Source: Curvibacter sp. (lineage in GTDB: Bacteria; Pseudomonadota; Gammaproteobacteria; Burkholderiales; Burkholderiaceae_C). From it: 47,640 nt of DNA. The position numbers were made by a program, and so were the translations under genes. Each line of letters begins with the position of its first letter. Position 1 is the stretch's first letter. Under the pieces are notes generated by a model. It saw only the letters and a program-made list of their open reading frames with translations. It was not told where the DNA came from and searched no databases. This document shows, piece by piece, positions 10,631-27,966 of the stretch. The stretch covers positions 1 through 47,640 of the forward strand of contig JAFAMV010000082.1 of the NCBI GenBank assembly GCA_019233055.1. Reading direction: 5' to 3'.

Positions 10631-13233
10631 GGCTCGCCCCTCCTGCCATCCGAGAGCGCCTTGCGCACCATGCCGACGAACCGGTTGTGATTGAAACTGG
10701 CCTTCTCCAGCACCGCCACCACATCGCCGCCCAGTTCGGCGAGGTCCTCTGCGGACAGGGCCCGCGCGGTGACGACCAGGATCGGAATCCGGCAGGTCTG
10801 CTGATCCTGCTTGAGGCACTTGATGAATTCGAAGCCGTTGACCTGGGGCATCATCAGGTCCAGCACCACCATGTCGGGCCGCTCCCGGCGCGCCAGCGCC
10901 AGGCCTTCCTGGCCGTCAAAGGCCCGGCGGACGGTGAAGCCCGATTCGCTCAGGTAGGCCGCGATCAACTCCACCGAGCGGGGGTCGTCGTCGACCACCA
11001 GCACCTTCACCGAGGGCCCCACCAGGGCCAGGCGCTGGTCATGCAGGGCGTCGTACAGGTCCTCGCGGCTCACCGGCTTCTGCAACACCGCACTGGCCCC
11101 CAGCGACAGGCCCCGGGCCTCGTCGGCCACGATGGACACGACGATGACGGGCACCTGGGCCGTGGGCGACGCCCCCTGCTTGAGTTGCACCAGCAGGTCC
11201 CAGCCATCCATGTCGGGCAGCAGGATGTCCAGGATGATCACGCTGGGCCGCCAGTGCTCGAGCAGGTCCAACCCCTGCCTGGCCGTGGCCACCAGCACGG
11301 CCCCCAGCCCGGCAGTGGCCAGTTGCAGCCGGATCAGCTCGGCCGCCTTCGGGTTGTCTTCGATGATCAGGGCCTGTTCTGCGGCGGACTCCGCCGCCTG
11401 CGAGGCCGCCAGCGGGGAGGCGCGGTCCGATGCCGGCAGGCCGGGCCCGGCCTCGCGCCACGGCAGCCAGACCGTGAAGCAACTGCCCTGCCCGGGCGCG
11501 CTGCGCATGCCGACGGTGCCGCCATGCAACTGGGCCAGCCGCATGACCAGTGCCAGCCCCAGGCCGGTGCCATCGGAGGCGCGGGCCAGCGACGAATCCA
11601 GTTGGGTGAAGGCATGGAAGAGGCGCGGCGCATCCTCGGGGCCGATGCCGACACCGGTGTCGCTGACGCTGATCTCGAGAAAGAAGGCGAAATCGTTCGC
11701 CGGCACGGGCATCCTCACCTGGGCCATGGCGTGGGGGCCGACACCGTCGGGCTCCCAGGCCAGGGCGGACCTGGGCACCCGCGCCGCCCGCAGGGACACC
11801 GAACCACCGTCCGGCGTGAACTTCACCGCGTTGGACAGCAGGTTGTAGAGGATCTGGCGGACCTTGCGCGCGTCCACCTGCAGCAGGCCCGAGCCGTCCA
11901 CCAGATCCGCCGCCAGGCCGATGCCGCGTGCCGCCGCCGCGCTGCGGACCACCACCAGGCTGTCGCCCAGCAGGCGGTCGACCGACTGGTCCGACAGGTC
12001 CAGCGTCATCTTTCCGGCCTCGATCTTGGACAGATCCAGGATGTCATTGATGAGGGCCAGCAGATGCTGGCCGCTGCCGTAGATGTCGGTGATGTACTCA
12101 TGCTGGTCGGGCGCCAGCTCACCCAGCAGGCCGTCCTTGAGCACCTCCGAGAAACCGATGATGGCGTTCAGCGGGGTGCGCAGCTCGTGCGACATGCTGG
12201 CCAGGAATTCGGATTTCAGCCGGCTGGCCTCGGCCAGTTGCTGATTCTTCTGGGCCAGCAGGGCGTTCATCGACTCCCGCTCCGCCGCCAGCCGATGCAG
12301 ATCCGCCGATTTCGCGACCTCCCGCTCATGCGAGGCCGCCAACCCCGCATACAGGGCGCCGTTCTCCAGCAGCAGGACCATGAGGACGAAACTCGCTGCC
12401 AGCCATCCATAGATGCGCCCGACGTAATAGCCGAGGTCGAAGCGTCCGCCGTTGAACACCGCAGCCAGCGCGATGTCGAACAACCAGACGCACAGCACCA
12501 CCATCAGCCACAGGTCGAGCACCGAGTGAGGCCGCCGGCGCCAGAGCAGCCACAGCGCGGGCAGGCTCATCGACCAGGTCCCGGCCATGGCCAACCTGCC
12601 GGTCGTCGTGTAGTGGTTGTTGAGCAGGATCGGAGGCAGCGTCAGCACCTGGGTCGTGGCCAGCCAGCCCAAGGCCGCCACCCACAAGGCCACCAGCGCC
12701 ACAGCCACCAGGGCGGCACGGCCGGGCTCGACGCGTTGCACCCAACCCTGACCAGGCCTCGTCTTGAGGCTGGCATAGACCACCAGGAACAGCGGGAAGC
12801 CGCCATGCCAGAACGCATAGAGCCAGGCGGTCGTGTGCGGCCCGGCCCCGAGCAGGCCGGTCTCGGAGAACAGCCCGGGGAAACTCAGCGAGTGCAGCAC
12901 CGTCATGCCGGCGCTGTAAAGGTAGGCACTGGCCAGCACCCACAAGGCCTCGGTGCGCAGGATGCGGAACTGCCCGAACAGCAGCACGGCGGTGATCAGG
13001 TCATTGACGATCAGAGCGGCCTGGTACGCCGGGATGAAGGCCGCCAGCGGCGTCAGGGGGACCCTGGCAAAAGGCAGGGCCAGCAGGAACACCACGGCCG
13101 AGGCGCCCAGGACGACCCTGGCCACCTGACGGTCCCGGCTCGACGCGCACAGCGTCGACAGGAACGGCGGCTGGGGCGCAGCCAGGCCCTCGGCCTGTGC
13201 CGCAGCCCCAGCCTGTGGCCCGTCGGCAGCCAT
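10627..13233 (-). CDS. Membrane hybrid histidine kinase with two receiver domains
   Basis: An 868-residue sensor kinase. About residues 40-290 contain seven or eight hydrophobic helices (for example VVLGASAVVFLLALPF and AFIPAYQAALIVNDLI) resembling a MASE-type (perhaps MASE4) membrane sensor. Then follow a short coiled coil, the HisKA box with phospho-accepting H349 (SMSHELRTPLNAIIGFSE), a HATPase domain (ILYNLLSNAVKFT, DTGVGIG, GTGLGLAL) and two receiver domains with acceptors D669 (ILDILLPDMDG) and D792 (VLDLMMPQVNGFE). ATG 13233 was preferred over an upstream GTG at 13260 because GGCGGGGTG precedes it. It is first in a four-gene operon with two REC proteins and an EAL protein; the stimulus is unknown. 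Confidence 0.88.
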   Translation of the reverse strand: MAADGPQAGAAAQAEGLAAPQPPFLSTLCASSRDRQVARVVLGASAVVFLLALPFARVPLTPLAAFIPAYQAALIVNDLITAVLLFGQFRILRTEALWVLASAYLYSAGMTVLHSLSFPGLFSETGLLGAGPHTTAWLYAFWHGGFPLFLVVYASLKTRPGQGWVQRVEPGRAALVAVALVALWVAALGWLATTQVLTLPPILLNNHYTTTGRLAMAGTWSMSLPALWLLWRRRPHSVLDLWLMVVLCVWLFDIALAAVFNGGRFDLGYYVGRIYGWLAASFVLMVLLLENGALYAGLAASHEREVAKSADLHRLAAERESMNALLAQKNQQLAEASRLKSEFLASMSHELRTPLNAIIGFSEVLKDGLLGELAPDQHEYITDIYGSGQHLLALINDILDLSKIEAGKMTLDLSDQSVDRLLGDSLVVVRSAAAARGIGLAADLVDGSGLLQVDARKVRQILYNLLSNAVKFTPDGGSVSLRAARVPRSALAWEPDGVGPHAMAQVRMPVPANDFAFFLEISVSDTGVGIGPEDAPRLFHAFTQLDSSLARASDGTGLGLALVMRLAQLHGGTVGMRSAPGQGSCFTVWLPWREAGPGLPASDRASPLAASQAAESAAEQALIIEDNPKAAELIRLQLATAGLGAVLVATARQGLDLLEHWRPSVIILDILLPDMDGWDLLVQLKQGASPTAQVPVIVVSIVADEARGLSLGASAVLQKPVSREDLYDALHDQRLALVGPSVKVLVVDDDPRSVELIAAYLSESGFTVRRAFDGQEGLALARRERPDMVVLDLMMPQVNGFEFIKCLKQDQQTCRIPILVVTARALSAEDLAELGGDVVAVLEKASFNHNRFVGMVRKALSDGRRGEP

Positions 13234-13550
13234 GGTCACCCCGCCAGACCCGACCCGCACCGAGGGCAGTCACGGCGGCCCGGTCCCAGCCGCCGGAGGT
13301 TCTGCATGCCTTGAATCGCTTTTTTCATCCGCACCCCCTGTGTTCCATGTCCGGACCGGGGCCTTCGGCGCTGTCATGAGCGCTCCGGCCTTTGGGTGAA
13401 GCATTCATGAAAGCCGTTCGTCCGTCAAGCCAAGCCGCCCGGAACCCGGATTGGTGGCCCACGACAAAAGGGGGGGCGGGCACCGGGCATCCACCCGGGC
13501 CGCCTCAGAGCGCGGTGCGCGCAGCGTCTGCGCAAGGCCTCAGGAGGGTC
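13234..13550. other. Intergenic region between the kinase operon and fahA
   Basis: This 317-base gap should hold the promoter of the minus-strand kinase operon and the end of the fahA transcript. A short inverted repeat, CCGGG (13483-13487) and CCCGG (13494-13498), followed on the minus strand by a C-run and TTTT (13466-13469), could be a weak terminator for fahA. I see no RNA gene and no convincing small ORF. Confidence 0.4.
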
Positions 13551-14831
13551 TCAGGCCCAGGCCGGCAGCACCTGACCGACACAGGGTCCGAAACCGATGC
13601 TTCGCCAGCCGGCCCTGTGGCAGCGCCCCGCCAGCTCGATGCTGTCGCCATCGAGCAGGAAGCTGCGCTGTTCGCCGTTGGCCAGGGTGATGGGGTGCTT
13701 GCCCCCCTGGCTCAGCTCGAGCAGCGAGCCCGATTGCCCGGCCCCGGGGCCCGACAGCGTGCCCGACCCGAACAGATCGCCGGCCTGCAGGCTGCAGCCG
13801 TTGACCGTGTGGTGGGCCACCAGTTGGGCCACGGTCCAATAGGCCGCTTCGGCAAAGTTGGAGCGGCTGATGGTTTCGGCGGCGTTGCCGGCCGCGCGCA
13901 TGCGCGCAGTCTGCAGGCGCACCTCGAGGTCGATGTCGAAGGCGCCGCTGGCGCTGTTGCCGCCCGAACTCAGATAAGGCAAGGGTTGCGGATCGCCCGC
14001 CGGCCGGCTGAAGGGGCGCCGGAACGGCGCCAGCGCCTCCAGCGTCACGATCCAGGGCGAGAGGGTGCTGGCGAAATTCTTCGACAGGAAGGGCCCCAGG
14101 GGCTGGTATTCCCAGGCCTGCAGGTCGCGTGCGCTCCAGTCGTTGAACAGGGTCAGCCCGAAGACATGGGCCTCGGCCTCCTCGATGGACACCGGCTCGC
14201 CGCGCTCATTGCCACGGCCGACCACCACGCCCAGCTCCAGCTCCAGGTCCAACCTCTGGGACGGCGCCAGATGCGGGACGGCCTCGTCCGGGCCCTTGAT
14301 CTGGCCACGGGGACGCCGGAAATCCGTCCCGCTGGGCACGATGGTCGACGCCCGGCCGTGGTAGCCGATGGGCACCCACTGGTAGTTGGGCAGCAGCGGG
14401 TTGTCGGGCCGGAACAGGCGTCCGACGGCCGTCGCATGGTGGATGCCGACATAGAAATCGGTGTAGTCGCCGATGTCGCAGGGCAGCGCCAGCGCCACCG
14501 CCGACAGGGGCCGCAATGCCGGCTGCCAGCCCGCCTGCTGCGCGCTGCCGGCCCGCAGGCCCCGCGACAGGGCCAGGCGCAAGGCCTGCCGCTCGGAGGC
14601 GCTGCACTCCAGCAGCTGCTTCATGTCGCCCTGCGGCACCAGGCCTGCGGCCTGCAGGTCCAGCACCTGATCGCCGATCGCGACCCCGAGCCGCAGCGCG
14701 CCCCCTGCCGGGTCGCGGAAGCGCCCGAAAGGCAGGTTCTGGAGCGGGAAATCGCCGCCCTCGTCGTTGGCCGACTCGACCCAGCTGCGCAGGGCCGGGT
14801 CATGGGTTTCGTTGATGTCCTGGAGGTTCAT
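13551..14831 (-). CDS. fahA: Fumarylacetoacetase
   Basis: A 426-residue protein of the fumarylacetoacetase family, which hydrolyses the C-C bond of fumarylacetoacetate to fumarate and acetoacetate, the last step of homogentisate degradation. Family motifs include DYTDFYVGIHHATAVGRLFR, YQWVPIGYHGRASTIVPSG, LDLELELGVVVGRGNE, LFNDWSARDLQAWEYQPLG and SSGGNSASGAFD. The full length and N-terminal SH3-like region favour true FahA over the shorter fumarylpyruvate hydrolases. The start at 14831 is the first ATG after a GGGAAGCTCC stretch. It is the last gene of a minus-strand set with the AAHS-type transporter and MBL hydrolase. No homogentisate dioxygenase or maleylacetoacetate isomerase is present in the window. 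Confidence 0.93.
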   Translation of the reverse strand: MNLQDINETHDPALRSWVESANDEGGDFPLQNLPFGRFRDPAGGALRLGVAIGDQVLDLQAAGLVPQGDMKQLLECSASERQALRLALSRGLRAGSAQQAGWQPALRPLSAVALALPCDIGDYTDFYVGIHHATAVGRLFRPDNPLLPNYQWVPIGYHGRASTIVPSGTDFRRPRGQIKGPDEAVPHLAPSQRLDLELELGVVVGRGNERGEPVSIEEAEAHVFGLTLFNDWSARDLQAWEYQPLGPFLSKNFASTLSPWIVTLEALAPFRRPFSRPAGDPQPLPYLSSGGNSASGAFDIDLEVRLQTARMRAAGNAAETISRSNFAEAAYWTVAQLVAHHTVNGCSLQAGDLFGSGTLSGPGAGQSGSLLELSQGGKHPITLANGEQRSFLLDGDSIELAGRCHRAGWRSIGFGPCVGQVLPAWA

Positions 14832-14872
14832 GGAGCTTCCCTGAAGAATGGGCAGAAGAAGGGCCGGTCCGC

Positions 14873-16252
14873 TCAGGCCGCCTTGCCGGCCAGAGGTGCC
14901 GCACGCCCGGCCGCCCGGGCGGCCAGCGAGGGGATGTGGCGACGCACCAGCAGCAGACCGACCAGGGCCAGCACCATCGCACCGCCCAGCAGGCTCAGGT
15001 AGGCGCCGGCACCGCCCGAGGTGATGACCGCCGCCCCGGCAAAGGCGCTGAGGATGGCGCCGAAGCGCCCGACCGCCAGGGCCGTGGCGGTGCCGGTGGC
15101 CCGCACCGCCGTCGGGTAGACGTGGGCGCACAGCGCATACATGGTCGACTGCACCGCGTTGACGAACAGACCGTGCAGGCCCAGGCCGACGATCAGGAGC
15201 TGGGTGTTCTGTTTCACGTCCACGCCCTTGAGCACGAAGGCGGTGGCCGCACCGCCGAGACAGCACAGGATGAGCGGCCAGCGCGAACCGTGGCGGCTGA
15301 TGGCCACGGCGCAGAGCAGGGCACCGAAGACGCCGCCGAAGTTGTAGGCCGTCAGGCCGGAGCCGGCGATGTCCAGCGGCAGGCCTTCGGTGGCCAGCAT
15401 GGTGGGCAGCCAGCTGAAGGCGCTGTAGACCGCCAGCAGGCACATGAAGAAGGCGAAGGACAGCGCCAGGGTGTCGCGGCGATGGTCGCGGCTGAAGACC
15501 GCCGCAAAGCCGGCCGATTGCTCGCGCTGCTGCTCGGCTGCATCGACGAAGACACTGCCGGCGCCCACCTGGCGGCCCATGCGGGCGAGCAGCCGGGTCA
15601 GGGCATCCCAGCGCTCGCGGTGGCGTGCCAGGTAGCGCGGCGATTCGGGCAGGGCCAGGCCGAGCAGGAGCGCCATCGCGATGGGGAACAGGCCGCCGAT
15701 CCAGAACAGCCCCTTCCAGCCCAGGACCGGCAGCACCAGGCCGGCGAACAGGCCCGCGATCATGCCCCCCAGCGGGTAGCAGACGATGGTGGCGGTCACC
15801 GCCAGGGTGCGGCGGCGTGCCGGGGTGAATTCGGCCGTCATGGTGGTGGCGCTGGGCAAGGCACCGCCGATGCCCAGGCCGGCGACGAAGCGCAGCAACG
15901 CCAGGGTCGGCACATCGGGCGCGAAGCCGATGGCGCAGGTGGCCAGGCCGAACAGCAGCACGCTGCCCACCACGGCCAAGCGGCGGCCGAAGCGGTCGGC
16001 AAAGGCGCCGACGCTGGCACTGCCGATGGCCATGCCCAGCAGCCCGGCCGCCACCGCCGGGGCGAAGGCGCTGCGCGGCAGCCCCCAGTCCTTGAGCATC
16101 ATCGGAATGGCGAAGCCGATCAGCTGGCCGTCCAGGCCGTCCATGACGATGGCCAGGGAGGCCAGCAGGACGACCCATTTCTGCAGCGCTGAAAACGGCC
16201 CGTCGTCGAGGGTGCGGCCGATGTCGACGGCGCGCGGGTTGGTGTTGCTCAA
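14873..16252 (-). CDS. MFS transporter, aromatic acid:H+ symporter (AAHS) type
   Basis: A 459-residue, 12-helix major facilitator. AAHS features are visible: VMDGLDGQLIGFAIPMM in helix 1, the GAFADRFGRRLAVVGSVLLF loop between helices 2 and 3, LRFVAGLGIGGALPS in helix 4 and a LPESPRYLARH central loop. The family (PcaK, BenK, MhpT) imports aromatic acids or related anions with protons. Placement between fahA (41 bases downstream) and the MBL hydrolase suggests uptake of the aromatic substrate of this cluster, which cannot be named from sequence alone. Confidence 0.88.
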   Translation of the reverse strand: MSNTNPRAVDIGRTLDDGPFSALQKWVVLLASLAIVMDGLDGQLIGFAIPMMLKDWGLPRSAFAPAVAAGLLGMAIGSASVGAFADRFGRRLAVVGSVLLFGLATCAIGFAPDVPTLALLRFVAGLGIGGALPSATTMTAEFTPARRRTLAVTATIVCYPLGGMIAGLFAGLVLPVLGWKGLFWIGGLFPIAMALLLGLALPESPRYLARHRERWDALTRLLARMGRQVGAGSVFVDAAEQQREQSAGFAAVFSRDHRRDTLALSFAFFMCLLAVYSAFSWLPTMLATEGLPLDIAGSGLTAYNFGGVFGALLCAVAISRHGSRWPLILCCLGGAATAFVLKGVDVKQNTQLLIVGLGLHGLFVNAVQSTMYALCAHVYPTAVRATGTATALAVGRFGAILSAFAGAAVITSGGAGAYLSLLGGAMVLALVGLLLVRRHIPSLAARAAGRAAPLAGKAA

Positions 16253-16319
16253 GGCTTGTCTCCGTCTTTTTTCTTGATGAGGCGCCGCCCGCGGCAGCGC
16301 CTGCCTACCGGGGCTGTCT

Positions 16320-17279
16320 TCAGCCTTCCAGGGTTTCCCACATCATGCGGTCACGGTCGGCGGTCCAGACGCGGGGATCAGGGTACTGGGTCACCTCGTC
16401 ATAGCAGCGGGTCACGTCGAAGGGCATGCAGTGGTCGAAGATCACCCAGTGGCCGTACTTGGGCTTGAGCCTGGCAAAAGTGTCCTTGTAGACCGCGTTC
16501 AGGTCCTTGCCGGCCGCCACGCCGGCTTCCACGCTGGCGCGCACGTCGGCGATGAAGGAGGCGGTGGACGAGAGCCCGGCGGCCACCTGGGCCTCACCCA
16601 GCAGGGCCGGTCCGCGCCCGGGCACCAGGGCCTGGGGCTTCAGGGCCGCCAGGTTCTCCAGGGTCTGCGGCCAATCCTTGAAGTAGGCGTCGCCGGCATA
16701 GGGGGTGGCATCGAACTCGACCAGGTCGCCCGACAGCAGGGTGCGCTCCTGCGGCAGCCAGACCACGGTATCGCCCTTGGTGTGGCCACGGCCCAGTTGC
16801 AGCAGCTGCACCTCGAGCTTGCCCAGCCACAGCGTCATCTTGCCGGTGAAGGTCATGGTCGGCCAGGTCAGGCCGGCCGGCACGGTCTCGACATTGCGGA
16901 ACAGGCGCGGGAAGCGGCCGATCTCGCTGGCCTTGTCGGCCTCGCCGCGCTCGACGATCAGGTCGTAGGTGTCCTGGCTGGCGATCACCTGCTCGGGCTG
17001 GTAGGCCGAGGCACCCAGCACGCGCACCGCGTGGTAGTGGGTCAGCACGACGTACTTGATGGGCTTGTCGGTCACCTCGCGGATGCGCCGGATCACGTCG
17101 GCGGCCATGGCCGGCGTGGCCTGGGTGTCGGCCACCAGCACCGCATCGTCGCCAATGATGATGCCGGTGTTGGGATCGCCTTCGGCGGTGTAGGCCCAGG
17201 CGTGTTCGGACAGCTGGCTGAAGGTGACCTTCTTTTCTTCCAGGTCGGCTTGCGAGGCAAATTGTTTGGTCTGCGTCAT
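16320..17279 (-). CDS. MBL-fold metallo-hydrolase with incomplete metal-binding motif
   Basis: A 319-residue metallo-beta-lactamase-fold protein. The fold is seen from VLVADTQATPAMA, VVLTHYHAVRVLGA, LGRGHTKGDTVVWLP, LLSGDLVEF and a late FDHCMPFD. The canonical HxHxDH motif reads HYHAVR here, so the Asp and His that bind the second metal are replaced by Val and Arg; the later His and Asp ligands remain. The same replacement may be characteristic of a subfamily found with aromatic catabolic genes, which I infer from memory. It has a strong ribosome binding site (AAGGAGATCGCC) and a promoter facing the divergent IclR gene. Confidence 0.82.
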   Translation of the reverse strand: MTQTKQFASQADLEEKKVTFSQLSEHAWAYTAEGDPNTGIIIGDDAVLVADTQATPAMAADVIRRIREVTDKPIKYVVLTHYHAVRVLGASAYQPEQVIASQDTYDLIVERGEADKASEIGRFPRLFRNVETVPAGLTWPTMTFTGKMTLWLGKLEVQLLQLGRGHTKGDTVVWLPQERTLLSGDLVEFDATPYAGDAYFKDWPQTLENLAALKPQALVPGRGPALLGEAQVAAGLSSTASFIADVRASVEAGVAAGKDLNAVYKDTFARLKPKYGHWVIFDHCMPFDVTRCYDEVTQYPDPRVWTADRDRMMWETLEG

Positions 17280-17303
17280 GGCGATCTCCTTGGTTTGTCT
17301 ATG

Positions 17304-17323
17304 GCGAATTCATTTGCGAATTC
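17304..17323. repeat. Tandem GCGAATTC repeat in the MBL/IclR intergenic region
   Basis: GCGAATTC occurs at 17304-17311 and again at 17316-17323, separated by ATTT; each contains the palindrome GAATTC. It lies 25 bases upstream of the MBL hydrolase start, inside the expected transcript leader, and may be a regulator binding site. Confidence 0.35.
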
Positions 17324-17360
17324 AACGGAAAGGCATTCTGAGTTCAATGTTCGTCAATGT

Positions 17361-17372
17361 CAAATGCATTTG
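17361..17372. promoter_or_regulatory. Candidate IclR operator, palindrome CAAATGCATTTG
   Basis: A perfect 12-bp palindrome overlapping a minus-strand TTGACA (17363-17358) that could be the -35 of the MBL-transporter-fahA operon; CAGAAT follows after 17 bases. It is 55 bases upstream of the IclR start. Assignment to the IclR protein is inferred from position only. Confidence 0.45.
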
Positions 17373-17427
17373 TTATGATTTCATGAACCCCAGGGGTCTT
17401 TCCGGGGCATGCGAGGAGATCGGCGCG

Positions 17428-18228
17428 ATGGCGGATGGCGAGACAAGGCAGGCGCAGCAGCGCTCGGTGCAATCGGTCGAGGTCGGCGGCCGCCTGCTGC
17501 TGGTGCTGGCCCAGCGCCCGGTCCCCATGACGCTCAAGGAGCTGGCGGCGCTGGCCGACCTGAGCCCCTCGAGAGCCCACCCCTATCTGGTGAGCTTTGC
17601 CCGTCTGGGCTTTGTGCTGCAAGACCCGCAGAGCGGCAAATACGCCCCTGGTCCGGCAGCCTTGCAACTGGGGCTGAGCTGCCTGCACCAGTCCGACCCG
17701 ATCGCCTCGGCCAATGAGGTGGCGCGCGCCCTGGCCGAGCGCATCGACTCGGCCGTGGCCGTGGCCGTCTGGGCCAATTTCGGCCCCACGGTCGTGCGCC
17801 TGTTCGAGGGCAGCCAGCCGCTGCATGTGAACATGCGCGCCGGCACCGTGATGGCCCTGTTCGGCACCGCCACCGGCGAAGCCTTCGCGGCCACCCTGCC
17901 GCCGCAGGAGATCGAACGCGCCCTGTCGGCCCTAGCCGGCGAACGCGCGAACCGGCATCGCCTGACGGACAGCCAGCTGAGCCGGCAACTGCAACAGGTG
18001 CGCACGGAATTCGAGCAGCAAGGCCTGACCCGTGCGCTCGGGCGCCCCATCCCCAACGTCAACGCCCTCAGTGCGCCGGTGCGCGACCACGAAGGCCACA
18101 CGGTGCTGGTGCTGACCGCCATGGGCCACGAGCAGGATTTCCCGCCCGACTGGGACTCGCCGCAGGCGCAGGCCCTGCGCGAGGCGGCGGACGAGGTGTC
18201 GCGGCGGCTGGGATACCACCCCGGCTGA
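17428..18228 (+). CDS. IclR-family transcriptional regulator
   Basis: A 266-residue regulator: N-terminal winged helix ([40 protein letters not shown]) and C-terminal IclR effector domain ([35 protein letters not shown]). IclR proteins control aromatic and short-chain acid catabolism by binding a pathway metabolite. ATG 17428 was chosen because GAGGAG (17413-17418) lies nine bases upstream; an in-frame ATG at 17383 lacks such a site. It is divergent from the MBL-transporter-fahA genes, which it probably controls. The next gene on the same strand, 32 bases downstream, is the ubiquitin-like gene. Confidence 0.9.
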
Positions 18229-18260
18229 CCCGGGACACCAACGCCAACCCGCCCACCGAC

Positions 18261-18614
18261 ATGCAGATCTTCGTCCGCACCCCGACCGGCTCGACAATCA
18301 CACTCGAGGTGGAGAACAGCGACTCCATCGAGAACGTCGAAGCCAAGATCCAGGACAAGACCGGCGACCCGCCAAGCCAGCAGCAACTGACCTTCGCCAA
18401 TCAGGTGCTGCAGCCGGGCAGGACGCTCAGCGACTACAACATCCAGAAAGAAAGCACGCTCTTCCTGACCTTGACCACCCAGGGCGGACAGGATGCGGCG
18501 GCCGTACCGACACTGTCGCCCCTGGGCTGGGCGCTGACTGCGGCGGGCATCTGCGCCCTGACGCTCATGCGACGGCGGGACCGGCTGGCAGCCGCCAGGG
18601 ACACCGGATCTTGA
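18261..18614 (+). CDS. Ubiquitin-like protein with C-terminal IPTL-CTERM-like sorting/anchor tail
   Basis: A 117-residue protein. Residues 1-76 align without gaps to eukaryotic ubiquitin with about 55 identities (hand count against human ubiquitin from memory), including [33 protein letters not shown] and the final Gly75-Gly76. K29, K33 and K63 are kept; K6, K11, K27 and K48 are replaced by R, S, E and Q. The recognition patch L8/I44/V70 is P/T/T, and R42, R72 and R74 are Q, T and Q. The tail (77-117) has VPTLSPLGW, a hydrophobic helix to about residue 103 and RRR, as in IPTL-CTERM signals. There is no signal peptide, no in-frame upstream start and no obvious ribosome binding site; translation may depend on the IclR gene 32 bases upstream. 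G+C of the ubiquitin part is about 60% by hand count, below its neighbours. Function unknown. Confidence 0.85.
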
Positions 18615-18619
18615 AATCC

Positions 18620-18645
18620 GAACCGCCCCGGGGTTGAACCGCCCC
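18620..18645. repeat. Short direct repeat downstream of the ubiquitin-like gene
   Basis: GAACCGCCCC occurs at 18620-18629 and 18636-18645, with CGGGGTT between them that could pair with either copy to form a small hairpin. There is no T-run, so this is not a convincing terminator. Confidence 0.3.
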
Positions 18646-18704
18646 CAAGCGTCCCCTTGCAAAGTGGCCGAACCTCCGCGCCACACAGGCGGTCCGCCCT
18701 GACG

Positions 18705-19190
18705 CTAGGCCCGCCGCCCCTCATCCCCCATCTCGACCAGCTGCCGGGCGCGCAGCAACAGCTTGTCATGCAGCGCATTCAGGCTGGCAAGTTCATCGGC
18801 GCCGAGGTCTTCGAGCAGGAAGCGTTCCCGCGCCAACACCAGCGGCTCGATCTTCTTGTAGAGCTCCCGCCCGGCAGGCAGCAGCTTCACCAGGTAGGCA
18901 CGGGCGTCGTCGGGGTCCACCGAGCGCGACACCAGCCCCTTGCCCTCCATGCGTGCCAGGGCCCGGCTTGCCGACAGCTTGTCGAGGGTGGTGTGCTCGA
19001 TGATGGCCGTGGTCTTGGTGGGCGGCGCCTTGTACAGCGCGGCCAGCACCCGCCACTCGTCGCGGCTGAGGTCGAAGCGCACCGCATAGATCTGCGCCAT
19101 GGAGCGGCTCACCGCCTCCGACAGGACGGCCAGCCGATAGGGGAAGAACGACGCCAGCTGCTGATTCAGTCCATTCGTATCTTTTGACAT
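18705..19190 (-). CDS. MarR-family transcriptional regulator (aromatic cluster)
   Basis: A 161-residue MarR-type winged-helix repressor: FPYRLAVLSEAVSRSMAQIY, DEWRVLAALYKAPPTKTTAI, the recognition helix DKLSASRALARMEGKGLV and the wing SVDPDDARAYLVKLLPAG. Such proteins usually release DNA on binding a phenolic ligand. It is divergent from the VOC/monooxygenase operon across 115 bases with clear inverted repeats, so it is probably the repressor of that operon. ATG 19190 is the first good start; the N terminus MSKDTNG is typical. Confidence 0.88.
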   Translation of the reverse strand: MSKDTNGLNQQLASFFPYRLAVLSEAVSRSMAQIYAVRFDLSRDEWRVLAALYKAPPTKTTAIIEHTTLDKLSASRALARMEGKGLVSRSVDPDDARAYLVKLLPAGRELYKKIEPLVLARERFLLEDLGADELASLNALHDKLLLRARQLVEMGDEGRRA

Positions 19191-19216
19191 CGTTCCATCC
19201 TACCAAATTGCGATCC

Positions 19217-19247
19217 ATCAATGAATTTTCCATAAATTTCCATTGAT
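19217..19247. promoter_or_regulatory. Inverted repeat ATCAATG / CATTGAT upstream of the VOC operon
   Basis: ATCAATG (19217-19223) and CATTGAT (19241-19247) form perfect 7-bp arms around a 17-base AT-rich spacer, in the marR/VOC intergenic region. Possible regulator binding site overlapping one or both divergent promoters. Confidence 0.4.
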
Positions 19248-19254
19248 CTATTTA

Positions 19255-19268
19255 GTATCAGTTGATAC
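19255..19268. promoter_or_regulatory. Candidate MarR operator GTATCAGTTGATAC
   Basis: Perfect 6-bp arms GTATCA/TGATAC around two bases, located 37 bases upstream of the VOC gene start. The size and symmetry suit a MarR dimer. The regulator is inferred from adjacency. Confidence 0.5.
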
Positions 19269-19305
19269 CATTGCACCATTCCAACCCTCATCAATGGAGA
19301 CAGAC

Positions 19306-19851
19306 ATGGGCATCGAACGAATTCATCACGTGGCCTACCGCTGCAAGGACGCCAAGCAGACGGTCGAGTGGTACAAGAAGCATCTGGGCATGGACTTCGT
19401 GCTGGCCATCGCCGAGGACCAGGTGCCGTCCACCCACGCGCCCGACCCCTACATGCACCTGTTCCTCGATGCCGGCGGCGGCAACATCCTGGCCTTCTTC
19501 GAACTGCCCAACGCCGCCCCCATGGGCCGCGACACCAACACCCCCGACTGGGTCCAGCACATCGCCTTCAAGGTGGGCAGCCTGGACGAACTCACCGCCA
19601 TCAAGGCCCGCCTCGAGGCCGACGGCATCGAGGTGATCGGCATCACCGACCACACCATCTTCAAGTCGATCTATTTCTTCGACCCGAACGGCCACCGCCT
19701 CGAGCTGGCCGCCGACACCGCCACGCCCGAGATGATGAAGAAGCTCGACGAGGTCAAGTGGCCGATGATCGAGGAATGGGCGCAGACCAAGCGCGCGCCC
19801 AAGCACGCGGCCTGGATGCACGAACGCGAATTCTCGGGCGACCCGGCCTGA
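19306..19851 (+). CDS. VOC-superfamily protein (glyoxalase/extradiol dioxygenase fold)
   Basis: A 181-residue single-chain vicinal-oxygen-chelate protein with two beta-alpha-beta-beta-beta modules. Candidate metal ligands are H8 (IERIHHVAYRC), E66 (LAFFEL), H85 (WVQHIAFKV) and E133 (GHRLELAAD), the pattern seen in glyoxalase I-like enzymes; H/H/E also matches type I extradiol dioxygenases. GGAGA five bases before ATG 19306 fixes the start. It is first in an operon with a flavin monooxygenase and a DUF2783-like protein. As no other ring-opening enzyme is seen in the window, it could be the ring-cleaving or an isomerising step; this is inference. Confidence 0.8.
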   Translation: MGIERIHHVAYRCKDAKQTVEWYKKHLGMDFVLAIAEDQVPSTHAPDPYMHLFLDAGGGNILAFFELPNAAPMGRDTNTPDWVQHIAFKVGSLDELTAIKARLEADGIEVIGITDHTIFKSIYFFDPNGHRLELAADTATPEMMKKLDEVKWPMIEEWAQTKRAPKHAAWMHEREFSGDPA

Positions 19852-19863
19852 AGGAGCGACGCC

Positions 19864-21471
19864 ATGCTGAAAACCTACAGCTACCCCGAATTCGCCTATC
19901 GGCAGTCTGCCGAGCAGCGCGAAGGCCAGGTCCGGCGCCACCCGCTGGTCATCATCGGTGCAGGCCCGATCGGCCTGACCGCCGCCCTCGACGCGGCTCA
20001 GCGCGGCATCCCCGCCATCGTTCTCGATGACAACAACACCGTGAGCATCGGCTCGCGCGCGGTCTGCTACGCCAAGCGCCCCCTCGAAATCTGGGACCGC
20101 CTGGGCGTGGGCCAGCGCATGGTCGACAAGGGCGTGAACTGGAAGGTCGGCAAGGTCTTCTTCCAGGAAGACCTGGTCTACACCTTCGATCTGCTGCCCG
20201 AAGACCGGCACAAGATGCCGGCCATGATCAACCTGCAGCAGTACTACCTGGAGGAGTACATGGTCGAGGCCTGCGACAAGGCCCCGGGCGTCGATCTGCG
20301 CTGGAAGCACAAGCTGCTGAGCATCGCCCAGGAGTCCGACCACGCGGTGCTGACCATCGAGACCCCCGACGGCATCTTCAAGATGGAGGCCGACTGGGTC
20401 GTCGCCTGCGACGGCGCCAACAGCGACACCCGGCGCATGATCGGCGCCGACTTCACCGGCCAGTTCTTCCAGGACCGCTTCCTGATCGCCGATGTGGTCA
20501 TGAAGGCCGATTTCCCGACCGAGCGCTGGTTCTGGTTCGACCCGCCCTTCCACCGTGGCCAGAGCGTGCTGCTGCACAAGCAGTGCGATGACGTCTGGCG
20601 CATCGACTTCCAGCTCGGCTGGGACGCCGACCCCAACGAGGCCAAGAAGCCGGAGAACGTCATCCCCCGCATCCAGGCCATGCTCGGCAAGGATGTCGAA
20701 TTCGAACTCGAATGGGTGTCGGTCTACCAGTTCGCCTGCCGGCGCATCGACCAGTTCCGCCACGGCCGCATCTTCTTTGCCGGCGATGCCGCGCACCAGG
20801 TCTCGCCCTTCGGCGCCCGGGGCGCCAACACCGGCGTGCAGGACACCGACAACCTGATGTGGAAGCTCAAGCTGGTGCTCGACGGCAAGGCCCCCGAAAG
20901 CCTGCTCGACAGCTACCATGCCGAACGCGCCTTCGCCGCCGACGACAACCTGCTCAACTCGACGCGATCGACCGACTTCATTACGCCCAAGAGCAGCACC
21001 AGCCGCATCCTGCGCGACGCGGTGCTCGAACTGGCCCACCACGAGACCTTCGCCCGGCGCATGGTCAACAGCGGGCGGCTGTCCACCCCCACCCCCTATT
21101 CTCAGTCGCCGCTCAACACGGCAGACGAAGACCGCTTTGCCGGGCTCATGCAGCCCGGCACCAACTGCGCCGATGCGCCGGTCCGGGTCGGCGGCCAGGA
21201 CGGCTGGCTGCTCAACCAACTGGGCGAAGGCTTTGTGCTGCTGACCTTCGGCACCGAGCCCCTGCCTGCCGTGGAGATCGGCGGTGTGCGGGCCGGCGTC
21301 CTGCGCGTGGGCGTCGAACTGCAGGACCCCGACGGCACCCTGACCCAGCGCTACGACGGTCAGCCCGGCACCGTCTACCTGATCCGCCCCGACCAGCATG
21401 TGGCCGGCCGCTGGCGCCGCTTCGACGCCGCCAAGATCGAAGCGGCCCTGCGCCGCAGCCTGGCCCTGTGA
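19864..21471 (+). CDS. Class A FAD-dependent monooxygenase (aromatic hydroxylase, MhpA/PheA-like)
   Basis: A 535-residue flavoprotein with the group A monooxygenase fingerprints: GAGPIG at residues 32-37, the DG motif (VVACDGANSDTRRMIG) and the second FAD motif (FFAGDAAHQVSPFGARGANT), plus a thioredoxin-like C-terminal domain. These enzymes hydroxylate phenolic rings using NAD(P)H and O2. Combined with fumarylacetoacetase across the regulators, a route through a hydroquinone such as homogentisate is plausible, but the exact substrate cannot be assigned. It starts 12 bases after the VOC stop behind GAAGGAG. Confidence 0.87.
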   Translation: MLKTYSYPEFAYRQSAEQREGQVRRHPLVIIGAGPIGLTAALDAAQRGIPAIVLDDNNTVSIGSRAVCYAKRPLEIWDRLGVGQRMVDKGVNWKVGKVFFQEDLVYTFDLLPEDRHKMPAMINLQQYYLEEYMVEACDKAPGVDLRWKHKLLSIAQESDHAVLTIETPDGIFKMEADWVVACDGANSDTRRMIGADFTGQFFQDRFLIADVVMKADFPTERWFWFDPPFHRGQSVLLHKQCDDVWRIDFQLGWDADPNEAKKPENVIPRIQAMLGKDVEFELEWVSVYQFACRRIDQFRHGRIFFAGDAAHQVSPFGARGANTGVQDTDNLMWKLKLVLDGKAPESLLDSYHAERAFAADDNLLNSTRSTDFITPKSSTSRILRDAVLELAHHETFARRMVNSGRLSTPTPYSQSPLNTADEDRFAGLMQPGTNCADAPVRVGGQDGWLLNQLGEGFVLLTFGTEPLPAVEIGGVRAGVLRVGVELQDPDGTLTQRYDGQPGTVYLIRPDQHVAGRWRRFDAAKIEAALRRSLAL

Positions 21472-21487
21472 AAAAAAGGACATGACC

Positions 21488-21688
21488 ATGAGCCAACTGA
21501 TCCGCAGCCCGAACATCGCCGATGTCGATGGCTTCTACGAAGAGCTGGTGGCCGCACAGCGCCACTGCAACGACGAGCAGGCCGTCGGCGTGCTGGCCAA
21601 GCTGGTGCTGCTGCTGGCCAACCACGTGGGTGACCGCGCGGTGCTCAGCGAGGCCCTGGCGCTGGCGCGCCGGCCCGAAGCGGGCTGA
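21488..21688 (+). CDS. Small DUF2783-like protein following the monooxygenase
   Basis: A 66-residue helical protein (MSQLIRSPNIADVDGFYEEL, then HCNDEQAVGVLAKLVLLLAN) that I recognise as DUF2783-like, commonly encoded directly after FAD monooxygenases of this type. Two in-frame ATGs exist; 21488 is preferred because AAGGA (21476-21480) is seven bases upstream, whereas it sits only one base from ATG 21482. It lies 16 bases after the monooxygenase, so it is probably co-translated. Function unknown; a role as partner or stabiliser of the monooxygenase is an inference. Confidence 0.68.
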   Translation: MSQLIRSPNIADVDGFYEELVAAQRHCNDEQAVGVLAKLVLLLANHVGDRAVLSEALALARRPEAG

Positions 21689-21712
21689 GGCCGGCTGAGG
21701 CCGCGCCGCGAT

Positions 21713-22234
21713 TCAATCTGGGTGAGGCACCGCCCCGCCCGGCCCGAAGATGACCGTCATGGCCCGCCCCTGCTGCTCGCGGCTGGCGCCCACGACGGCC
21801 TCCAGGCTGTCGTCCGGGCCGCGCACGGCGATGCCCGCCTGCCGCAATTCGGCCAGCAGTTGATCGACCGGCTTGCCGGCCAGGGGCGCCACCTGCTGCA
21901 AAGGGGCCCGGGTGATGGCGCGCAGCGCCAGCACGGGTGGCGACTGGCGCGCACCGCCCTGCCCCGGCAACTTCGCGAAAGACCCGGCCAATACCAGCGC
22001 ACTGAGCCCGAGCAGGAACCAGGCGGTGCGCCCGACCACGAAGTGCCGCTTCAAGGCCGGCCAGTTGGTGAAGGCATGGGCGGCCACCGCCGCCACCATC
22101 AGCCAGCCCAGCCACTGGTGGGCCGTCTTGTTGAGCCCGGTGTCGAGGTGGAAGAACATCAGCACGCCGGTGGCCGCCATCAGGAGAAAGGCGCCCAGGG
22201 TCAGCGGGGTCGCCCATTCGCGGGAGATTTTCAT
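21713..22234 (-). CDS. DUF4405-like membrane protein
   Basis: A 173-residue protein with three hydrophobic segments: PLTLGAFLLMAATGVLMFF (about 10-28), WLGWLMVAAVAAHAFTNW (about 41-58) and AWFLLGLSALVLAGSFA (about 71-87). Histidines near the helices (FHLD, TAHQWLG, AAHAF) resemble the haem-coordinating pattern of cytochrome b561/DUF4405-type proteins. The C-terminal 80 residues (TRAPLQQVAPLAGKPVDQLL onward) form a soluble domain. It may carry haem b; no partner gene is adjacent. Confidence 0.65.
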   Translation of the reverse strand: MKISREWATPLTLGAFLLMAATGVLMFFHLDTGLNKTAHQWLGWLMVAAVAAHAFTNWPALKRHFVVGRTAWFLLGLSALVLAGSFAKLPGQGGARQSPPVLALRAITRAPLQQVAPLAGKPVDQLLAELRQAGIAVRGPDDSLEAVVGASREQQGRAMTVIFGPGGAVPHPD

Positions 22235-22389
22235 TCAGGGTTCCAGTTCAGACCGGCGGCCCCACAACCGGTGCCGCCCACGGACCCGACACTAACCGCC
22301 GCCTGTGGCGTGCCGGTGAACACCCCGTGCCATTTGTTCAAGCGCAGTTGAAGATCGGGTCAAGCGGCAGCGGATTTCCGCCGAGGCGG

Positions 22390-23367
22390 TCAATCGGCCT
22401 CGATGTGGGCCGCATGGATCAATTGCGCCCAGCGCTGGGTCTCCTGCCTCAGGAACTGTCCGGCCTGTTCGGGGTTGGACGGGGTGACGCTGGCGCCCAG
22501 GGCACCCAGGCGTTCCACCAGATGCGCATCCGCCAGCGCCTGGGTGGCGGCACGGCTCAGCGCCTGCAGGACCTCGGCCGTCAGGCCGGCCGGGCCGAGC
22601 AGCATCCACCAGACATCGGTGTTCACACCGGCCAGCCCGGCTTCGGCCAGCGTCTGCAGTTGCGGCAGCAACGAAGAGCGGTGTTCGCCGGTGACCGCCA
22701 GTGCCTTCAGCCGCCCCGATTGCAGATGGGGCAGCACCTCGAGCGGGTTCAGCAGCATGAAGGACAGGCGGTTGGCGATCAGATCGACCAGGGCCGGCGA
22801 GCCCCCCTTGTAGGCCACATGCTGGGCGTCGATCTGGGCCACCGAGCAGAACAGCGCGCTGGCCAGGTGCCCAGAGCTGCCATTGCCGGCCGAGCCATAG
22901 TTGAAGCTGCCCGGCTTGGCCCGGGCCGCCGCCACCAGGGCTTTGACCGAATCCCAGGGCGCGCCGGAGGCCGTCACCAGCACCAGGGGTGCGGTGCCCA
23001 GGCGGGAGATCGGCGTGAAGTCCTTCAAGGCCTGGAAGCCCAGCTTGGGGTAAAGCGTGTTGTTGGTGGCCAGGCCATTGGCCCCGACCAGCAGGGTGTA
23101 GCCGTCGGGCGCGGCGCGGGCCACGTATTCAGCCCCCAGGTTGGCATCCGCGCCGGGCCGGTTCTCGACGATGACCGACACCCCCAGCAGGGCCGCCAGC
23201 CGCTCGCCCAGGGTGCGGCCCACGGTGTCGACCGCGCCCCCAGGGGCAAAGGGCACGACAAGGTGCAGGGGGCGCTCCGGGAAGCGGCCGGCGGCCAGGG
23301 CCGGGCGCATCAGGCGGGTGGCCCCGGCAGCCAGGGCCAGGCGATGGAAGTCACGGCGGTGGAACAT
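22390..23367 (-). CDS. Bug-family (TctC-type) periplasmic solute-binding protein
   Basis: A 325-residue tripartite tricarboxylate-type binding protein. It has a signal peptide with a twin-arginine-like start (HRRDFHRLALAAGA) and probable cleavage after ALAA near residue 26. Family motifs include LHLVVPFAPGGAVDTVGR, VENRPGADANLGAEYVA, YTLLVGANG and NYGSAGNGSSGHLA. These proteins bind carboxylates and related anions. No TctA/TctB membrane genes are adjacent, as is usual for orphan Bug proteins. The ATG at 23367 was chosen over a longer frame because it begins the export signal. The MFS gene 41 bases upstream may share its transcript. Confidence 0.9.
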   Translation of the reverse strand: MFHRRDFHRLALAAGATRLMRPALAAGRFPERPLHLVVPFAPGGAVDTVGRTLGERLAALLGVSVIVENRPGADANLGAEYVARAAPDGYTLLVGANGLATNNTLYPKLGFQALKDFTPISRLGTAPLVLVTASGAPWDSVKALVAAARAKPGSFNYGSAGNGSSGHLASALFCSVAQIDAQHVAYKGGSPALVDLIANRLSFMLLNPLEVLPHLQSGRLKALAVTGEHRSSLLPQLQTLAEAGLAGVNTDVWWMLLGPAGLTAEVLQALSRAATQALADAHLVERLGALGASVTPSNPEQAGQFLRQETQRWAQLIHAAHIEAD

Positions 23368-24868: not shown

Positions 24869-26659
24869 ATGCCCCCAGCGGACACCCTCCTGCAGGCCCT
24901 GCTCGACCGACACCGGCGGGCCCCCGATCGGCTGGTGCAGATCCTGCGCGAATGGCAGGCGCAGGCGCACTGGCTGCCGCGCGCCGATCTCGCCACCATC
25001 GCAGCGGCGCTGCGCCTGCCCCTGGCCCATGTGGAGGGGGTGGCCGGCTTCTACCGTTTCCTGCACACCCGACCGGTCGGCCGATATCGGGTGCTGTTCA
25101 GCGACAACATCACCGACCGGCTGCAAGGCAGCGAGGCCCTGATGCACGAGCTGTGCCGGCGCCTGCGGGTGACCCCGGGCCAGGTCCGCGCCGACGGCCG
25201 GGTCAGCGTAGACACCACCTCGTGCACCGGGCTGGGCGACCAGGGTCCGGCGGTGCTGGTCAACCACCACCAGGTGCTGACCCGGCTCGGACCCGACCGC
25301 ATCGCCGAACTGGCCGGGCTGATCGAAGACCAGGTGCCGGCCGCCCGATGGCCGGCCGAATGGTCGCAGGTCGAAGAGCAGGTGCGGCGCGCCGATGTGA
25401 AGCTGGGGCCCCAGCCCGAGCCGGGCCGCAGCCTCCAGGCCGCCCTCGCCCGGGGCCCGCTGGGCACCCTGGAAGAGATCCGTCGCTCACGCCTGCGCGG
25501 GCGCGGCGGTGCGGGCTTCGCCACCGCCACCAAATGGGAACTGTGCCGCCACGCGCACGGCGCGCAGCACTACGTGGTCTGCAATGCCGACGAGGGTGAG
25601 CCGGGCACCTTCAAGGACCGGGTGCTGCTCAGCCGCTGCGCCGACACGGTGTTCGAAGGCATGACCATCGCCGCCCTGGTGGTGGGCGCACGCCAGGGCC
25701 TGGTCTACCTGCGCGGCGAATACCGCTTCCTGCTCGAGGCGCTGCAGGCGGTGCTCGAGCGCCGCCGTGCCGCCGGCCTGCTCGGCCGCGGCATCCTGGG
25801 ACAGGCCGGCTTCGACTTCGACATCGAGATCCACCTCGGTGCCGGCGCCTACGTCTGCGGCGAAGAGTCGGCCCTGCTCGAGTCGCTGGAAGGCCGGCGC
25901 GGCACGCCCCGCATCCGGCCGCCGTTTCCGGTCGAACAGGGCTACCTCGGCCAACCCACCACGGTCAACAACGTCGAGACCTTCTGCGCCGCCACCCACA
26001 TCGCCTGGCGCGGCGGCGACTGGTGGGCCGCCATTGGCACACCGCAGTCCACCGGCACCAAGGTCCACTCCGTCTCGGGCGACTGCGAGCGCCCCGGTGT
26101 CTACGAATACCCTTTCGGCACCCGCATCGGCCGCATCCTCGAAGACTGCGGCGCGCGCGACACCCAGGCCGTCCAGGTCGGCGGCCCCTCGGGCCTGTGC
26201 CTGAGCGCCCTCGAGTTCGACCGCCGCATCGGCTTCGAGGACGTGCCCACCGCCGGTGCCTTCATGGTCTTCGACCGCAGCCGCGACATGTTCGAGGTGG
26301 CGCGCAACTTCGCCCGATTCTTCGCCCATGAGAGTTGCGGCTTCTGCACGCCCTGCCGTGTCGGCACCGCGCTGGTGCTGCGCCGACTGGACAAGCTGCG
26401 CGCCGGCTGGGGCTCCAGCGAGGACGTGCAGGTGCTGACCGAGCTGGAGCACCTGTTGCAGGGCACCACCCACTGCGGGCTGGGCGCGGCCGCCTGCAAC
26501 CCGCTGCGCGACACCCTGCTCAAGTTCCGCCCGGCCTATGAGCAGCACCTGCAGTCGCTGCATTTCGTGCCCGGCTTCGACCTGGATGCCGAACTCTCGC
26601 AGGCCCGTCGGGCCACCGGCCGCGACGACGACCAGGCCCATCTGGAGACCCTGCCATGA
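24869..26659 (+). CDS. hoxF: NAD-reducing hydrogenase diaphorase subunit HoxF
   Basis: A 596-residue FMN/Fe-S subunit of the soluble [NiFe] hydrogenase that passes electrons between NAD(H) and the HoxU clusters. The N-terminal ~170 residues are a NuoE-like module whose [2Fe-2S] motif is incomplete (TSCTGLGDQGPA), as in the Cupriavidus protein from memory. The NuoF-like part has RGRGGAGFATATKW (NADH), CNADEGEPGTFKDRVLL, GAGAYVCGEESALLESLEG (FMN) and the [4Fe-4S] motif SCGFCTPCRVG with THCGLG. ATG 24869 gives the expected length (~600); longer in-frame starts are Arg/Pro-rich. It is the first gene of hoxFUYHW and overlaps hoxU by four bases. Confidence 0.95.
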   Translation: MPPADTLLQALLDRHRRAPDRLVQILREWQAQAHWLPRADLATIAAALRLPLAHVEGVAGFYRFLHTRPVGRYRVLFSDNITDRLQGSEALMHELCRRLRVTPGQVRADGRVSVDTTSCTGLGDQGPAVLVNHHQVLTRLGPDRIAELAGLIEDQVPAARWPAEWSQVEEQVRRADVKLGPQPEPGRSLQAALARGPLGTLEEIRRSRLRGRGGAGFATATKWELCRHAHGAQHYVVCNADEGEPGTFKDRVLLSRCADTVFEGMTIAALVVGARQGLVYLRGEYRFLLEALQAVLERRRAAGLLGRGILGQAGFDFDIEIHLGAGAYVCGEESALLESLEGRRGTPRIRPPFPVEQGYLGQPTTVNNVETFCAATHIAWRGGDWWAAIGTPQSTGTKVHSVSGDCERPGVYEYPFGTRIGRILEDCGARDTQAVQVGGPSGLCLSALEFDRRIGFEDVPTAGAFMVFDRSRDMFEVARNFARFFAHESCGFCTPCRVGTALVLRRLDKLRAGWGSSEDVQVLTELEHLLQGTTHCGLGAAACNPLRDTLLKFRPAYEQHLQSLHFVPGFDLDAELSQARRATGRDDDQAHLETLP

Positions 26660-27402: not shown

Positions 27403-27947
27403 ACAGCCGCCGAAAGCTCAGGCTGGCCACCGTCTCGCTGGGTGGCTGCTTCGGCTGCCACATGTCCCTGCTCGACATCGACGAACGCCTGCTCGCCCTG
27501 CTCGATCGCGTCGAATTCGACCGCTCGCCGCTGACCGACCTCAAGACCCTGGGCCCTTGCGACATCGGCCTGGTCGAAGGCGGGCTCTGCAACGCAGAGA
27601 ACGTGCAACTGCTGCGGGAATTCCGCGCCCGCTGCAAGGTGCTGGTGGCGCTGGGCGCCTGTGCCATCAACGGCGGTCTGCCGGCCCAGCGCAACGCGCT
27701 CGACGTGGGCGAGTTGCTGGACGCGGTCTACTGCCGTCAGAGCGGTCTGGACGCAGGCAGCCGGGTCCCCGACGACCCCGAGCTGCCCCTGCCGCTGAAC
27801 CGGGTCCACCCGCTGCACGAGGTGGTGCATGTGGACCATTTCCTGCCGGGCTGCCCGCCCTCGGCCGAGGCCATCTGGCGTTTCCTGAACGCCCTGCTCG
27901 ACGGCCGGACCCCGACCCCGGGCCCCGGCCAGATCCACTACGACTGA
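27399..27947 (+). CDS. hoxY: NAD-reducing hydrogenase small subunit HoxY
   Basis: A 182-residue small subunit of the bidirectional/soluble [NiFe] hydrogenase. Ligands of the proximal [4Fe-4S] cluster are visible in GGCFGCHMSLLDID, GACAINGG and FLPGCPPSAEAIW. It lacks a Tat signal, fitting a cytoplasmic enzyme. The start overlaps the hoxU stop; hoxH follows after 19 bases. Confidence 0.95.
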   Translation: MNSRRKLRLATVSLGGCFGCHMSLLDIDERLLALLDRVEFDRSPLTDLKTLGPCDIGLVEGGLCNAENVQLLREFRARCKVLVALGACAINGGLPAQRNALDVGELLDAVYCRQSGLDAGSRVPDDPELPLPLNRVHPLHEVVHVDHFLPGCPPSAEAIWRFLNALLDGRTPTPGPGQIHYD

Positions 27948-27966
27948 GCGACCAGGAGGATTTGCC

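Follow-up and report, generated by a model that had tools for sequence, protein, structure and literature searches.

Introduction

Ubiquitin is regarded as a hallmark of eukaryotes, and ThiS, MoaD, UBact and TtuB have its general fold in common and share little sequence similarity with it. BfUbb, the product of ubb in Bacteroides fragilis, is described (PMC3352274, PMC5705921) as 63% identical to human ubiquitin, secreted, 76 residues long, lacking the terminal glycine and present in some strains only, with cleavage of its signal peptide immediately before Met1. BfUbb inhibits other strains of its own species, and B. fragilis is counted as 'one of a few bacteria' that have a ubiquitin of the eukaryotic kind (PMC5705921). 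Among the portions of the open-access literature that were retrieved, those on BfUbb were found and none on anchored bacterial ubiquitins, ubiquitin with an exosortase, or a ubiquitin cassette; the excerpt of PMC11354881 does not name B. fragilis.

Here we describe a bacterial gene for a ubiquitin with a membrane-type tail. The window, that is, the whole stretch of 47,640 nucleotides that was analysed, is all of one contig (C198, 47.6 kb) of a genome called 99.97% complete, and the gene lies inside this contig. We tentatively propose that a eukaryote-derived ubiquitin domain now serves bacteria as a binding module which is anchored in the envelope and is not conjugated.

The ubiquitin domain

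The open reading frame is uninterrupted, with an ATG start, a TGA stop and 117 codons. Its parts are as follows, with the basis of each in brackets.

18261-18614, + strand: whole ORF, ubiquitin domain and sorting-like membrane tail, 117 amino acids (ORF, translation, Pfam, alignment)
18261-18488, + strand: ubiquitin domain, residues 1-76 (alignment to human ubiquitin, core and patch counts, predicted structure)
18489-18503, + strand: short linker QDAAA, residues 77-81, after GG 75-76 (sequence)
18504-18530, + strand: IPTL-like motif VPTLSPLGW, residues 82-90, below the IPTL_CTERM cut-off (alignment of tailed ubiquitins)
18522-18569, + strand: hydrophobic stretch, residues approximately 88-103, a probable membrane helix that would insert into the membrane (sequence; helix 87-115 in the model)
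18570-18611, + strand: basic C-terminal end (sequence)

When residues 1-76 were aligned with human ubiquitin without gaps, 55 of the 76 positions were identical (72%, 21 changes), exactly the number that an earlier note on this DNA had estimated by hand. Similarity at the level of the fold only would have counted against that note; instead, the protein scored 71.4 bits with the Pfam ubiquitin profile PF00240 (curated cut-off 25.4, E = 5.3e-20), and the domain reached approximately 1e-28 in a phmmer search of single-ubiquitin PDB chains. The resemblance of this ORF to ubiquitin is not due to chance. Structure prediction, proposed in the same note, pointed the same way: the AlphaFold model had a mean pLDDT of 89.9, with per-block averages of 94-97 across residues 1-70 and of 64 across residues 71-80. 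Of the 50 PDB matches listed in a structure search, nearly all were ubiquitin or variants of it, mostly with an rmsd of 0.4-1.9 Å. The domain is thus confidently predicted to have the ubiquitin beta-grasp fold.

The description of the protein as a near-eukaryotic ubiquitin holds for the overall identity but not for the positions that are critical for function. Q2, F4, K29, K33, K63 and the GG at 75-76 are kept, and the function-critical changes are L8P, I44T, K48Q, H68F, V70T, R72T, L73T and R74Q; four of the seven lysines are altered (K6, K11, K27 and K48). None of the 14 positions which we take to be the core is changed (p = 0.006) and all four positions of what we take to be the I44 patch (8, 44, 68 and 70) are (now P8, T44, F68 and T70; p = 0.005), where both sets were picked after the sequence was seen, and the p values rest on them. 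The domain ends in LTTQGG, followed by 41 more residues, and not in a free or processable LRLRGG. Given these departures from the human protein in the I44 patch, in four of its seven lysines and in R72-R74, conjugation appears unlikely from the sequence.

The tail and the missing signal peptide

The earlier note had described the domain alone and did not mention the 41-residue sorting-type tail. This tail (residues 77-117) consists of the linker, VPTLSPLGW, the hydrophobic stretch and RRRDRL, and has the tripartite build of IPTL-CTERM (P-T-L, helix, basic end). Among 15 aligned tailed ubiquitins, P83 is invariant and L85 nearly so. The tail can be aligned with members that pass the IPTL_CTERM model (L111, L109, L005, L008 and L019), and IPTL tails of the host's own proteins, for example one starting with IPTLSPWAL, resemble it. 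When it was searched with the IPTL_CTERM model itself (TIGR04174, cut-off 20.5 bits), no match was obtained at E ≤ 5, and PF18203 gave none at E ≤ 0.1; matches below threshold were midcut_by_XrtH (E = 0.022) and two PEP-CTERM models (approximately 0.05). As the tail misses the IPTL_CTERM model, we use the term IPTL-like and do not count it among the members of that family.

Exosortase substrates normally have a signal peptide. Using an in-house hydrophobicity rule, and no trained predictor, for all signal-peptide calls in this work, we saw none for the window protein in the three frames of the 210-240 nt upstream, nor, consequently, one hidden in another frame of that region. The midcut-by-XrtH proteins of the same genome were considered as a precedent for a signal-less XrtH substrate; since two of the three have signal-like starts by eye, they provide no such precedent.

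Genomic setting

The ubiquitin gene stands, as the earlier note stated, among ordinary bacterial genes. The neighbours are as follows.

16320-17279, − strand: metallo-beta-lactamase (MBL)-fold hydrolase (Pfam)
17428-18228, + strand: IclR-family regulator, with its stop 32 nt before the ubiquitin start; probably co-transcribed with it (ORF list, Pfam)
18705-19190, − strand: MarR-family regulator, convergent neighbour (Pfam)
19306-19851, + strand: VOC (glyoxalase-fold) protein, catabolic neighbour (domain search)
19864-21471, + strand: FAD-dependent oxidoreductase, catabolic neighbour (domain search)

The gene order is an ORF with a C-terminal fumarylacetoacetase, the MBL-fold hydrolase, IclR, ubiquitin, MarR, VOC and the FAD-dependent oxidoreductase. 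Within 17100-19400 a single promoter-like site is found on the + strand, at 17351-17379, and no obvious ribosome-binding site is seen in the sequence before the ubiquitin gene. Third-position GC of the ubiquitin part is host-like (0.88, against 0.88-0.93 in five neighbours).

The catabolic cluster at 13551-21471 is partly common to plasmids of Sphaerotilus and Acidovorax, where the MBL proteins are 83% and 77% and the IclR proteins 55% and 41% identical, respectively, and VOC genes are found as well; tblastn detected no ubiquitin gene and no MarR gene in these plasmid clusters. The same two Betaproteobacteria gave the first listed DNA match and the highest listed identity. Matches in Alphaproteobacteria stood between the two, so that the agreement with the assignment of the DNA as betaproteobacterial is weak. 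Elsewhere in the window, at 26656-29481, there are genes with iron-sulfur and nickel-hydrogenase domains, perhaps a soluble hydrogenase.

Bacterial relatives

A search of bacteria for relatives, another proposal of the earlier note, yielded 320 relatives in a scan of species genomes. The best 80 of these 320 were kept and, together with the window gene and eight from genome searches, make up the 89 loci that were parsed. A signal-peptide-like segment was found in 74 of the 89 by the in-house rule, and 72 of these 74 have an A-x-A-like cleavage motif directly before Met1. The remaining 15 loci (14 without a signal-like segment and one cut by a contig end) comprise five that look eukaryotic by eye and were set aside (L003, L010, L025, L030 and L035), four actinobacterial ones with another C-terminal part, and six tailed ubiquitins without a signal peptide, namely the window gene, L082, L110, L111, L112 and L011.

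The other five signal-less tailed copies are intact; four come from the same GTDB family, spread over three further genera, and one (L011) is in a Nitrosomonas MAG, where the taxa of MAGs may be wrong. The same architecture is present in the single-contig genomes G361, G178 and G111. Of the six signal-less members, only L111 passes the IPTL_CTERM cut-off (21.2 vs 20.5 bits), and the other five, among them the window protein, miss it; the tail of L112 passes the MYXO-CTERM model TIGR03382, and its domain is altered at the same four I44-patch positions as that of the window. Among 19 ORFs scanned around four of the other signal-less copies, no family was found in common.

Signal-bearing loci occur in 12 genus-named, non-MAG records: Cocleimonas, Dyella, Denitrificimonas, Paracidovorax, Hoeflea, Rhodoferax, Methylotenera, Rhodopirellula, Iodobacter, Pseudovibrio, Cohnella and Rhodobacter. 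When domains were searched in 74 proteins (73 of the 74 signal-bearing ones, L071 being left out for its length, and L006), 22 matched the autotransporter barrel of Pfam at E ≤ 0.01, 10 matched IPTL-CTERM, four dockerin and three SLH, and NCBIfam gave one T9SS tail.

Inspection by eye showed ubiquitin N-terminal to outer-membrane barrel ends in L012, L017, L029, L033, L041, L058 and others, and ubiquitin fused to dockerin-like ends in the Clostridia loci L067, L069, L076, L079 and L146. The actinobacterial ubiquitins L006, L059, L072 and L075 have no signal peptide and a different C-terminal part, and upstream of both L059 and L072 lies a gene with a C-terminus of this type, pointing to tandem copies.

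With the genome of the window counted in each case, a ubiquitin gene was found in one of nine genomes of the genus, and ubiquitin matches in 10 of 399 sampled genomes of the GTDB family and in two of 369 of the class sample; among the ten family genomes, the match in G186 is interrupted by a stop and that in G370 is weak and partial. One match was obtained in the plasmid search at E ≤ 1e-8, a protein of Ruminococcus albus 7 annotated as 'ubiquitin family protein', and the phage search for relatives gave no match. Twelve IMG/VR viral contigs (L132-L143) encode relatives of the tailed ubiquitins.

The ubiquitin gene of L011 (5784-6236 of the Nitrosomonas MAG contig) resembles an integron cassette. 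An attC-like hairpin lies on either side of it (z = -3.6 and -3.7), and the array contains eight GTTAG-ended sites that are attC-like by eye, where the scan called three sites versus 0.2 in shuffles. These attC scans are insensitive: of the two sites next to the L011 gene, one scan called neither and the other called one. That the window gene is itself an integron cassette gained no support, no attC site being found at 13000-23000 by the insensitive scan that called three of the approximately eight plus-strand sites of L011. Rfam gave nothing at gathering scores on L011, L082 and L001. The copy in G026 lies approximately 1.5 kb from transposase genes.

Link with exosortase H

The genome of the window has XrtH (TIGR04177) at 183.6 bits, against a cut-off of 86, and five IPTL-CTERM sites over cut-off, and in a control for the XrtH search one of 14 genomes gave a match and none passed the cut-off. 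XrtH was over cut-off in nine of the ten GTDB-family genomes with a ubiquitin match, the one without it being G186; the nine include all five family genomes that carry a signal-less copy. In 150 sampled family genomes, XrtH was over cut-off in 18 (23 at E ≤ 0.001), four of which are ubiquitin bearers. The comparison of nine of ten ubiquitin-bearing with 14 of 146 other family genomes, the latter taken as ubiquitin-free because no match was listed for them in the 399-genome search, gave a Fisher value of 6e-8 with kinship ignored; as the genomes are related, such values overstate independence.

A similar association was observed with the type of tail. XrtH was over cut-off in 16 of 20 genomes with a CTERM-type tail (eight shared with the family count) versus none of 15 other-tailed genomes, where the CTERM-type tails were partly assigned by eye, the 15 genomes were hand-picked, and L113, L114 and L023 represent a single type and may be closely related. 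The other-tailed genome of L029 gave one weak XrtH match. No XrtH match was found in the genomes of L011, L066 and L117 (G570), and that of L007 reached 82.7 bits, just under the cut-off. In addition, five of the eight other genomes of the window genus have XrtH and no ubiquitin match, indicating that XrtH is not enough.

Constraint and phylogeny

Among 73 signal-bearing relatives (L073 was dropped from this count because of an offset), Q2 is kept in 72, F4 in all 73, the patch positions in 52-65, and the GG at 75-76 in only six. Conservation of residues 58-65 was not read as selection, because the collection had been fished with peptides such as DYNIQKES.

The dN/dS ratio was 0.11 or less in nine of 12 close pairs and 0.28-0.51 in the other three, and signal-less L111 compared with signal-bearing L005 gave dN 0.07, dS 1.39 and a ratio of 0.05. 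The window gene has no close partner; with its five nearest by DNA, dN/dS was 0.24-0.48 (dS 0.7-1.2), and weaker constraint is therefore possible. In a tree of the 76-residue domain, from which L010, L030 and L073 were left out, 62 of 83 inner branches are open, and the end branch of the window protein is 0.99; in a second tree, in which the tail was included, it is 1.62. This second tree needs three changes for the six signal-less members, which form one group in 0% of 200 bootstrap trees, and by the AU test a single clade of the six stays compatible (p = 0.19); judged from the trees, the signal peptide may have been lost once or several times. Transfer from a eukaryote, as the earlier note suggested, is plausible, but the mostly unresolved tree does not give its direction.

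These results bear on the alternative that the window gene is a copy losing its function, which has lost its signal peptide and a better IPTL tail and is now drifting with no present role. This explanation deserves serious attention, although we consider it somewhat doubtful. The long end branch, the 21 changes from the human protein and the dN/dS to the five nearest are what a decaying copy would show, as are the missing signal peptide, the tail below cut-off, the occurrence in one of nine genus genomes and the lack of an obvious ribosome-binding site; yet the 117-codon frame is intact, the core is kept at 14 of 14 positions and third-position GC is typical, the five other signal-less tailed copies are intact elsewhere, and the ratio of 0.05 between L111 and L005 argues against decay.

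Discussion

The window gene appears to be one of a group of bacterial ubiquitins, patchy in distribution, which are reused as exported or envelope proteins and not as tags. The possibility of a domain adapted to a new role, raised in the earlier note, fits the many bacterial relatives; these also fit its other suggestion, a bacterial ubiquitin lineage, which is not wholly undescribed, as the secreted BfUbb has already been published.

How the envelope-anchored, non-conjugating module that we prefer would work can be put as follows, where we infer the eukaryotic origin, expression, topology, cleavage and function of the protein. The protein would be translated from the second gene after iclR. 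A basic end after a helix favours a cytoplasmic C-terminus by the positive-inside rule. The tail would insert with its basic end inside, so that the helix leaves the ubiquitin domain outside without a signal peptide (N-tail translocation). Exosortase H might then recognise the tail, cut near VPTL and pass the ubiquitin part to an envelope carrier, and the displayed domain may bind non-covalently, perhaps in antagonism between bacteria as BfUbb does.

The reverse orientation, an inner-membrane or cytoplasmic protein whose ubiquitin domain faces the cytoplasm, for example as a decoy for, or an immunity factor against, toxins from other bacteria that resemble ubiquitin or depend on it, would suit the six tailed members without a signal peptide, but it is unlikely: the basic end after the helix favours the C-terminus inside and the domain outside, the association with XrtH favours the envelope, and the target is putative only. 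Still less probable is a working ubiquitin-like modifier conjugated to proteins. The GG at 75-76 is kept in the window protein, but R72, L73 and R74 are changed, 41 residues follow the GG, and only six of the 73 signal-bearing relatives have it; moreover, no conjugation-type domain was found in the 16 other window ORFs scanned (six of them without any match), and a conjugating system was judged unlikely from the C-terminus and the I44 patch. Finally, an assembly artefact or eukaryotic contamination is scarcely credible even though five of the 80 kept loci look eukaryotic by eye in MAGs, because third-position GC is host-like, the tail is bacterial and host-like, the uninterrupted ORF lies inside its 47.6-kb contig of a nearly complete genome, and the same architecture stands in three single-contig genomes.

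A broader and more doubtful extension of the envelope-module reading is that many phyla may repeatedly have taken up eukaryotic ubiquitin as a non-conjugating envelope weapon or recognition module whose anchor can be exchanged (autotransporter barrels, exosortase tails, dockerin, SLH or T9SS) and which at times travels as an integron cassette, with the window branch being signal-less and its exosortase-H tail alone bringing the domain outside. The loci collected here suggest many more bacterial bearers of ubiquitin, of which most have a signal-peptide-like segment; among the proteins that were scanned, approximately half carry an export or anchoring part of a recognised type. One odd bacterial weapon would then become a general question, that of the binding partner of ubiquitin outside bacterial cells. 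A second question is whether a signal-less protein can reach an exosortase.

Compared with eukaryotic ubiquitin (PF00240), the window domain has the predicted fold, the 55 of 76 identities, the core, Q2, F4, K29, K33 and K63 in common, and differs in the I44 patch, K6, K11, K27, K48 and R72-R74 and in its 41 additional residues. With XrtH/IPTL-CTERM sorting (TIGR04177, TIGR04174) it shares the P-T-L motif, the helix, the basic end and a genome with XrtH, whereas it falls below the IPTL_CTERM cut-off and no signal peptide was found by our rule. The nearest published protein is BfUbb, whose role is reportedly the subject of a 2024 paper. BfUbb is a secreted inhibitor of other strains, whereas the window protein is without a signal peptide and has a membrane-type tail. 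Nevertheless, both are bacterial ubiquitins near the human protein, both are unfit for normal conjugation and both are patchy in distribution, and BfUbb is cut before Met1, as the cleavage motif suggests for most of the relatives found here.
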